This document shows positions 15,694 to 17,334 of a stretch of 44,110 nt of DNA, one piece after another (position 1 is the stretch's first letter; every line of letters begins with the position of its first letter). This DNA comes from Effusibacillus pohliae DSM 22757 (GTDB taxonomy: Bacteria; Bacillota; Bacilli; Tumebacillales; Effusibacillaceae): contig NZ_AQXL01000111.1 in the NCBI RefSeq assembly GCF_000376225.1, forward strand, positions 1 to 44,110. The letters are read 5' to 3'. Under the pieces are notes generated by a model, which saw nothing but the letters and a program-made list of their open reading frames with translations, ran no database searches and was not told where the DNA came from. The position numbers and the translations under genes are program-made.

Positions 15694-16932
15694 TTGCGAC
15701 AGCGATTGTTTTCGGACCGTTACCGGTTGGAACAACGTCTGGAGACGGCGGAGGGATGGCAGTTGTATCGGGCGGTTGACGTTTGCTTCCCCCGCAATGT
15801 TCGGGTCACCGTCTTGTCCCGTCGCGCCCCCTCCGCGATCGAGTTAATCCGCACGCGTGTGCGATCTCTTGCCGGCCTTTCTCACCAGCATATCATCAGC
15901 ATCTATGATGTGGAATGGGAAGCGGACGGCTGCCGGCTGGTGTCCGAATACCGCGAATGCCTGACGCTGCAGCAGGCGATCGGACAGGGGCGCAGATTTT
16001 CCCTGGAAGAAGCGGTTGCGATCGCGCTGCAGATCGCCGGGGCGATCGCGCATGCGCATCAGCAGCAGGTGCTGCATGGACAGCTGTCGTGTGACATGAT
16101 TTGGATTTATGACCGCCATGCGAAGGTGGATTTCGTTTGCCCGCCCGCTCTGGAGGAATCCACAACGATCGAGGTGCAGGTAGATCTGGTAGCGCTTGGA
16201 AACGTGCTGCGGCAACTGTTTGCGGCGACATCGCTTGCCGAGAATCCGGACGTTCAGGCCAAAATCGGAGAGCTGCTGGACCGCTTGACTGACAACCGTC
16301 AGCCGTCCTATACGAACGCGGCAGACGTGGCCTACGACTTGAAAATGATTCTGACAAAAGATGTCTGTCCGCTTTGCCCAACCTATTTGCAACAGATCAA
16401 CGAAACTACGCGCGTATGGGAGGGGCGGCAGGAAACCGGCGAGGCGTTTGCGAACGAGCGGTTCTCGTACAAGCGGCGGGAAAGCGGTTGGCCAATTTGG
16501 TCGGGCAGGATCCGCTTCCGTCTGGTACCGTATTTTATCGCTTCGATCGCTGCTGTGCTGGCGGGGATTGCCACATTTTTCCTGGTCTTCGCCAACCCGG
16601 ACAAGGCAACTCCCGCGCAGCGGACCCCGGTGGCGGACAATCGGCCGGTGCATGTGGCGATGGCCGAAACCACGCAAGCCGCCTCGACGATCACGATTTC
16701 GCCGGCGGAACCGATTTCCCGGCTGGAGCAACGGCCGCGGCTAGTGCCCCAACTGGTCGGATTGCAGCAGCAGGAAGCGGAAAAATTGCTGCTTTCCCTC
16801 GGGATGCGCTACGCTTATTACCTGGAACGCTCCGACCAGCCGCCCGGCACGGTGTTTAAGCAGGCGCAAGCACCGAATACGCCGTATCCGCCGGGAGAGC
16901 GGGTCGTATTTTATGTGAGCAGCGGCAAATAG
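15694..16932 (+). CDS. PASTA-domain membrane pseudokinase
   Basis: A protein of 412 residues with the layout of a PknB/PrkC-type Ser/Thr kinase: kinase-like domain about 8-220, one membrane helix about 280-300 and a single C-terminal PASTA domain about 350-412 (VPQLVGLQQQEAEKLLLSLG). Catalytic residues are lost. The VAIK lysine site reads VTV, HRDLKPxN reads HGQLSCDM (128-135) and DFG reads DFV (146-148). It starts at TTG after GAGGAGGGA. A CPLC motif lies near residue 230. It probably senses muropeptides and acts as a scaffold rather than an enzyme. Confidence 0.75.
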   Translation: MRQRLFSDRYRLEQRLETAEGWQLYRAVDVCFPRNVRVTVLSRRAPSAIELIRTRVRSLAGLSHQHIISIYDVEWEADGCRLVSEYRECLTLQQAIGQGRRFSLEEAVAIALQIAGAIAHAHQQQVLHGQLSCDMIWIYDRHAKVDFVCPPALEESTTIEVQVDLVALGNVLRQLFAATSLAENPDVQAKIGELLDRLTDNRQPSYTNAADVAYDLKMILTKDVCPLCPTYLQQINETTRVWEGRQETGEAFANERFSYKRRESGWPIWSGRIRFRLVPYFIASIAAVLAGIATFFLVFANPDKATPAQRTPVADNRPVHVAMAETTQAASTITISPAEPISRLEQRPRLVPQLVGLQQQEAEKLLLSLGMRYAYYLERSDQPPGTVFKQAQAPNTPYPPGERVVFYVSSGK

Positions 16933-17008
16933 TGAGATAGCTTACGGTATGCAAGCGCGATTCCGGGTACAATATGGTGGCAAGTATAAGCACAAGGAGG
17001 CGTTTCCC

Positions 17009-17254
17009 ATGGAGCAAACTGTCAAGGTGAGGATCGAATATTGCACGATGTGAAACTTCCTGCCGAAAGCCGTCAGTGTGACGGAAGAATTGCTCGGGCA
17101 GCACGCGAAGAGAATCGCGGAGTTGAGCCTGATTCCTTCATCGGGTGGCGTGTTTGAAGTGACGGTGGGGGACAAACTGATTTTTTCGAAAAAGCAGTTG
17201 AACCGGTTCCCGGAGGCTGGAGAAATTCCCAAATTGTTCTCGGACAATGCTTGA
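17009..17254 (+). CDS. SelW/Rdx-family selenoprotein with in-frame TGA (Sec15)
   Basis: Read with TGA at 17051-17053 as selenocysteine, the gene gives 81 residues. Strand 1 is VKVRIEY, the redox motif is C12-T-M-U15, then NFLPKAVSVTEEL, GGVFEVTVGDKLIFSKK and FPEAGEIPKLF. That is the thioredoxin-like Rdx (SelW/SelT/SelH) fold from end to end. AAGGAGG lies about 12 bases before ATG 17009. Coding similarity continues in the same frame on both sides of the TGA, which stands exactly where relatives have Sec or Cys. A stem-loop with G first in the loop follows at SECIS-like distance. Function is probably thiol redox. Sec insertion genes are not in the window. Confidence 0.85.
17054..17087 (+). promoter_or_regulatory. 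Putative bacterial SECIS element
   Basis: CCGTCA (17070-17075), loop GTG, TGACGG (17079-17084) form a perfect six-pair stem whose loop begins 22 bases after the TGA. CTTCC (17056-17060) can also pair with GGAAG (17083-17087) as a lower stem, leaving GTCA/TGAC as upper stem. Bacterial SECIS elements have a small apical loop with a G among its first two bases, about 16-37 bases after UGA, and this hairpin meets that rule. Confidence 0.65.
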
Positions 17255-17301
17255 TCAGCATATATGGAGCGGGCCGCGTGTGAACGAGCCGGCCCTGCAA
17301 G

Positions 17302-17334
17302 AAAACCTTCTTCGCCAGGCGAAGAAGGTTTTTT
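17302..17334 (+). terminator. Bidirectional terminator between the selenoprotein and esterase genes
   Basis: AAAACCTTCTTCGC pairs perfectly with GCGAAGAAGGTTTT around the loop CAG. A T run follows, and an A run precedes, so it can serve both convergent genes. Confidence 0.9.

Follow-up and report, generated by a model that had tools for sequence, protein, structure and literature searches.

An in-frame TGA, probably decoded as selenocysteine, in a SelW-like gene of Effusibacillus pohliae

Does the TGA near the start of a short open frame in Effusibacillus pohliae DSM 22757 mark a decayed gene, or is it read as selenocysteine (Sec)? The frame lies on the plus strand at 17009-17254 of a 44,110-nucleotide stretch of contig NZ_AQXL01000111.1 (hereafter, the window), in a genus that NCBI taxonomy places in the Alicyclobacillaceae, Caryophanales. 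A preliminary description of this DNA had proposed an 82-codon frame with TGA at the second redox position of a Cys-x-x-Sec motif, and direct reading bears this out: the frame comprises 81 residues (MEQTVKVRIEYCTMUNFLPKAVSVTEELLGQHAKRIAELSLIPSSGGVFEVTVGDKLIFSKKQLNRFPEAGEIPKLFSDNA) and a terminal TGA stop. The in-frame TGA is codon 15 (17051-17053, +), three residues past Cys12, and yields the redox motif Cys12-Thr-Met-Sec15 (CxxU; codons at 17042-17053, +), where Sec stands for the TGA codon. The good ribosome binding site claimed earlier can be read directly as a Shine-Dalgarno sequence, AAGGAGG, at 16994-17000 (+), 8 nt upstream of the ATG. The claimed downstream terminator corresponds to a terminator-like hairpin with a U tract at 17300-17334 (strand unassigned), 3' of the selW-like gene and between it and a convergent GDSL lipase gene; its folding energy is -21.5 kcal/mol (z -5.94), which none of 200 shuffles equalled. 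This hairpin was revealed by folding and is absent from the list returned by a simple promoter/terminator scan, which also found no plus-strand promoter-like site near the selW-like gene.

The protein encoded on either side of the TGA belongs to a single family. With the TGA read as a residue, a profile search matched Pfam Rdx (PF10262) at 79 bits against a cut-off of 22.6, and the domain runs continuously across the TGA, with residues 6-76 aligned to profile positions 1-71 (E 3e-22). The similarity on both sides, also noted in the preliminary description, is thus far above chance. Two NCBIfam models of the SelT/W/H group were also passed, NF041051 at 98.7 bits (cut-off 88) and TIGR02174 at 61.6 bits, and a whole-genome profile search identified this as the only Rdx match of the genome, with one TGA within it. 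For structure prediction, AlphaFold2 was given an alignment of 39 sequences in which TGA was read as Cys, namely the window protein and 38 homologues chosen for spread; one further locus (L026), whose matched stretch has TAG, was left out of this alignment. Both motif positions are invariant as Cys across the 39 sequences when TGA is read in this way. The resulting model is of fair confidence (mean pLDDT 81.6, pTM 0.65) and places a strand at residues 5-12, then the CxxU motif, then a helix at residues 18-32, predicting a thioredoxin-like product with its redox motif after the first strand. The closest structures in the PDB are those of SelW-related proteins (2FA8, 3DEX, 2OBK, 2OKA, 2P0G and 2OJL), which share the fold with a TM-score by query of 0.83-0.89 at 28-39% identity; for two of them, 2FA8 and 3DEX, the alignments show Cys at the fourth position of the motif, the one occupied by TGA in the window gene. 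Next comes mouse selenoprotein W (2NPB), matched over residues 5-67 (E 0.0025) with the same fold at TM 0.66, of which the window protein is a distant relative. The mechanism of the eukaryotic SECIS element differs from the bacterial one.

Taken as a true stop, codon 15 would cut the protein short, and Cys-type Rdx proteins exist, so that the locus could in principle be a pseudogene, that is, a Cys-type Rdx gene struck by a recent nonsense mutation. This was weighed against homologues drawn from named genomes, whose record titles span several phyla. Among the best 80 of 179 related loci, the codon aligned to residue 15 is TGA in 79, and the one exception is a Cys-type protein of Methylophaga (L073), which carries TGC; the alignment at residue 15 that the preliminary description had called for therefore returns the same codon almost throughout. 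Within the order of the window, an in-frame TGA was found within Rdx in 13 of 14 genomes, each time at the CxxU position, with the motif reading CTSU in one of them (L114). The remainder of the frame is intact, and its protein shares 62-76% identity with its counterparts at three loci, L111, L112 and L115, each in a different genome of the order. None of the refuting outcomes named beforehand (decay, a frame shift, or absence of selC and selB) was seen. The conservation of the TGA refutes the pseudogene in practice, and the hairpin and genes described below weigh against it further; we consider it very improbable.

If the TGA is instead read as Sec, a bacterial SECIS element would be expected to follow it. 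A hairpin with a 6-bp stem and a 3-nt loop beginning with G, CCGUCA-GUG-UGACGG (17070-17084, +), starts 16 nt past the TGA, and 22 nt separate the TGA from the apical loop (17076-17078). In a 40-nt segment, the minimum-energy and centroid folds both consist of this hairpin, at -7.8 kcal/mol. The bacterial SECIS model given in the figure 2 legend of PMC13188914 allows 16-37 nt between UGA and the apical loop and a minimum free energy of at most -7.5 kcal/mol; the hairpin falls within the constraints quoted there, its energy only just. Its stability alone is not unusual, as the 40-nt segment folds equally well after shuffling in 19 of 200 cases, and a longer 71-nt fold from 17040 keeps the hairpin but gains no extra stability (z +0.54; 143 of 200 shuffles as good). 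Support for a SECIS element comes from comparative analysis.

Alignment of 88 distinct sequences, which includes the window and the Methylophaga locus and leaves out L114 and five duplicate rows, showed the six stem pairs forming in 90.5% of cells, compared with 74.7% in column shuffles, and 82 cells with changes in both partners, compared with 15.6 expected. Changes on both sides were observed in five of the six stem pairs, a count equalled in 21 of 500 shuffles; two of five covariation measures were only moderately above the shuffles (reached by 21 and 29 of 500), and sliding the partner columns by 1-3 positions lowered pairing to 25-50%. Given that the hairpin lies within a coding region, we also applied a stricter control in which the protein was held fixed and codons were redrawn according to local usage (pooled for short loci) in 2000 simulations. 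This control used 92 of 94 rows, omitting the TGC-bearing L073 and L114, and five of the rows duplicate others in the segment. With G-U pairs counted, 70 of the 92 real sequences pair fully; the simulations average 4.9 such sequences and never exceed 12. One homologue (L034) illustrates the effect, encoding the same Ala-Val-Ser-Val-Thr as the window while a C-G pair has become G-C at two synonymous third positions. In 14 of the 92 sequences, at most four of the six pairs form in this register; by their titles, 11 of these 14 are records of Tissierella and other clostridia, and the weakly pairing sequences may use another structure. Taken together, these comparisons support 17070-17084 as a selected RNA structure and a predicted SECIS element. 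It is the strongest local evidence for recoding, and one on which the preliminary description had been silent; its covariation, in part at synonymous sites, is also at odds with a pseudogene.

Decoding of a UGA as Sec further depends on dedicated machinery, which the preliminary description had expected the genome to own as selA, selB, selC and selD. In the assembly (3.36 Mb, 135 contigs, 99.85% complete) all four were identified over their cut-offs, a further observation against decay of the gene. The tRNA-Sec gene, selC, lies at C80:9648-9740; its score of 68.5 bits exceeds the cut-off of 47 while the other 20 matches fall below, and ARAGORN types it as tRNA-SeC with anticodon TCA (UCA). SelB (402.5 bits), with its specific beta-barrel and winged-helix domains, SelA (629 bits) and SelD (417 bits) were likewise detected, and selA adjoins selD on contig C135. 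The selB gene, on contig C123 (L128:1021-3928), lies immediately after a thioredoxin-reductase-like gene and is itself followed by a Nudix-like gene. The tRNA-Sec gene (L001:1501-1597) is away from the other sel genes, having neighbours that resemble an ABC-2-type permease and a tyrosine recombinase; the names of all these neighbours were assigned from sequence.

The selD gene itself (L127:3880, C135) contains an in-frame TGA in a G-Sec-G-C-K motif, with a GUG-loop hairpin 33 nt on and a nearer one, GGUCC-GGC-GGACC. The GUG loop is common to the selW-like and selD hairpins of this genome. A scan of the 15 selD genes of the order gave a row for 14, and none for the second selD of one genome (L142 of G006). 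In 13 of the 14, the best hairpin has a loop of GUG, GUU, GUA or GUC at the same spacing, the other selD of that genome (L137) being the one that differs. Across the order, selA and a TGA-containing selD were each found in 14 of 14 genomes.

These data also bear on a further alternative, by which the UGA would be decoded as Cys or Trp through a suppressor tRNA or an altered code, with no part for selenium. We regard this as extremely improbable: the genome has a tRNA-Sec with anticodon UCA, and nothing specific favours the alternative. An altered code is also contradicted by the long neighbouring frames, which are open under the standard code, and by the selW-like gene itself, whose terminal stop is again TGA. 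In all four proteins examined (Rdx, SelD and the two peroxiredoxins described below), moreover, the TGA falls at the redox position.

With the RNA signal in the gene itself and the decoding machinery in the genome, the in-frame stop codon is almost certainly read as Sec. We therefore favour, at a probability of roughly 0.96 and on genomic evidence, a functional SelW-like selenoprotein gene of the Rdx family whose UGA is predicted to be read as Sec. Under this interpretation, SelD would supply the selenophosphate with which SelA makes selenocysteinyl-tRNA-Sec, and the SECIS hairpin just past the UGA would recruit SelB bearing this tRNA. Decoding of the UGA as Sec would then give an 81-residue thioredoxin-like protein with Cys-x-x-Sec at the end of its first strand, most likely a cytosolic selenol-thiol redox protein. 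In proteins with a CxxU motif, Sec acts as the attacker and Cys as the resolver; here, Sec15 would attack a peroxide or disulfide, and Cys12 would resolve the selenenyl intermediate.

Sec insertion generally competes with termination, and the UGA might instead mostly terminate, acting as a selenium-responsive switch that permits full-length SelW only when selenium is plentiful. One genome of the same genus (G004, a 420-contig assembly) could be taken to favour such a role, as selA and selD are present there and a profile search returned no Rdx match, meaning that the gene is either dispensable or was missed in this assembly. Against a switch, neither a regulatory partner nor an overlapping downstream gene was found, and the selW-like gene is followed by the terminator-like hairpin and a convergent gene; we judge this explanation improbable.

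To place the gene in a wider context, we surveyed 299 Bacilli genomes drawn from a larger group, including the 14 of the window's order. Rdx was detected in 45 of the 299, 68 have a selA match above the cut-off, and 43 have TGA-containing Rdx; outside the order, the latter was found in 30 of 285 genomes and selA in 54 of 285. The earlier statement that selenoproteins are rare in aerobic Bacillales is, in light of these frequencies, too strong. All 43 genomes with TGA-containing Rdx possess selA, compared with 25 of the 256 others (Fisher p about 1e-34, a value that is only indicative as the genomes are related). Two genomes have only a stop-free Rdx, one with selA over the cut-off and one without. 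The counts correspond to 46 TGA-containing Rdx places, two of which list two TGAs, and codon-by-codon checking was confined to the order. In five Bacilli genomes (G103, G254, G091, G192 and G232), the TGA-containing Rdx and selA share a strand and are separated by 64-689 nt, a proximity suggesting a sel-gene cluster.

Searches of the genome for selenoprotein families, covering FdhA (TIGR01591), SelD (TIGR00476), Rdx (PF10262) and AhpC/TSA (PF00578) besides selA and selB, identified further candidates. Of 15 AhpC/TSA matches, two carry one in-frame TGA each. The first (L144; C108:11334-11720, -) is a candidate thiol peroxidase with its TGA in TPG-U, which passes NF006960 (thioredoxin-dependent thiol peroxidase) when Cys is substituted for Sec and has a GGUU-loop hairpin 36 nt past the TGA. 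The second (L145; C135:16709-17104, +) is an AhpC/TSA protein with its TGA in TPV-U; with the same substitution it falls below the cut-offs of peroxiredoxin models, and as only weak 4-bp hairpins fit simple rules, a SECIS element is not obvious. In both, the TGA occupies what is presumably the expected position of the peroxidatic cysteine, and it is plausible that these two peroxiredoxins are redox partners of SelW.

A TIGR01591 search detected no TGA in the four formate-dehydrogenase-like matches of the genome (three places). Formate-dehydrogenase matches with one TGA each were returned for four genomes (G002, G003, G004 and G006), counted irrespective of position within the match. Within the families searched, TGA is absent from the formate-dehydrogenase-like matches and present in Rdx, SelD and the peroxiredoxins, so that selenium use in this species appears to centre on a small group of redox proteins. 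More tentatively, and with less than even odds in our estimation, this spore-forming and supposedly aerobic lineage might keep its Sec system mainly for SelW, SelD and two Sec-peroxiredoxins, with SelW as redox partner of the peroxiredoxins and no Sec-formate dehydrogenase in this species. Such a partnership would fit the metagenomic operons uniting Prx and SELENOW-like genes that are mentioned in PMC13188914. An antioxidant set of this kind, if real, would contradict the view, expressed in the same source, that aerobic bacteria rarely retain selenoproteins as Sec is too prone to oxidation. Set against that statement, the less expected aspect of the locus is its setting, with selA and TGA-containing selD throughout the genomes sampled from the order.

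Proteins of this type are not new to bacteria. PMC9312934 and PMC13188914 include SELENOW-like proteins (PF10262, CxxU) among the bacterial selenoprotein families, with AOH51717.1 as an example, and a count of SelW-like genes dates back to 2006, when three selenoproteins were given for Firmicutes/Bacillales (PMC1794560). The window gene shares with that family its Pfam domain, the CxxU motif, a SECIS element just past the UGA and a small stand-alone protein, and differs in organism and sequence, with no architectural difference found. The Cys-x-x-Sec motif is likewise ascribed to SELENOW in PMC8508763. As described in PMC11955535, SelW of Campylobacter jejuni (CJnc60) is a protein of about 80 aa from a formerly unannotated ORF, whose UGA is read by tRNA-Sec and whose full-length translation past the UGA is supported by Ribo-seq and proteomics; the window protein, in contrast, is a prediction from sequence. 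It passes NF041051 (SelTWH_Campy; 98.7 vs 88 bits), a model that, from its name, we infer to cover C. jejuni SelW. Our literature search found no paper naming both a selenoprotein and Effusibacillus. Since the CxxU family is established, the window gene is a further member of it, new in organism and sequence.

Small selenoprotein genes are easily overlooked by gene callers. According to PMC4607533, some selenoprotein genes, SelW especially, were missed entirely in annotation, and 195 of 298 selenoprotein genes are stated in PMC12013277 to be annotated correctly. The window gene offers a clean, testable example, in which SECIS pairing is preserved through synonymous changes. The wider pattern across the order (selA in 14/14, TGA-containing selD in 14/14, TGA-containing Rdx in 13/14) may matter more, and a lineage with two TGA-containing peroxiredoxins could test the role of selenium outside formate metabolism.

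The gene neighbourhood, examined by comparing 14 window neighbours with 11 loci (the ABC ATPase query was not relied on), says little about selW-like function. A PASTA/kinase-like gene lies upstream of the selW-like gene and also adjoins Rdx in two loci of the same genus (L120 and L121). Downstream, the convergent GDSL lipase, the ABC permease and the acpS-like genes are likewise present in L120. None of the compared neighbours was matched in L122, L010 or L011; the sole neighbour match was an RNA methyltransferase-like gene in L126 and L014, and a PASTA-like fragment in L123, L124, L125 and L013, of which L124 and L013 are apparently one and the same Tumebacillus avium locus. The upstream gene itself (15694-16932) encodes a kinase-like protein with a C-terminal PASTA domain; its best Pkinase match covers profile positions 44-122 of 263, and the product may be a pseudokinase.
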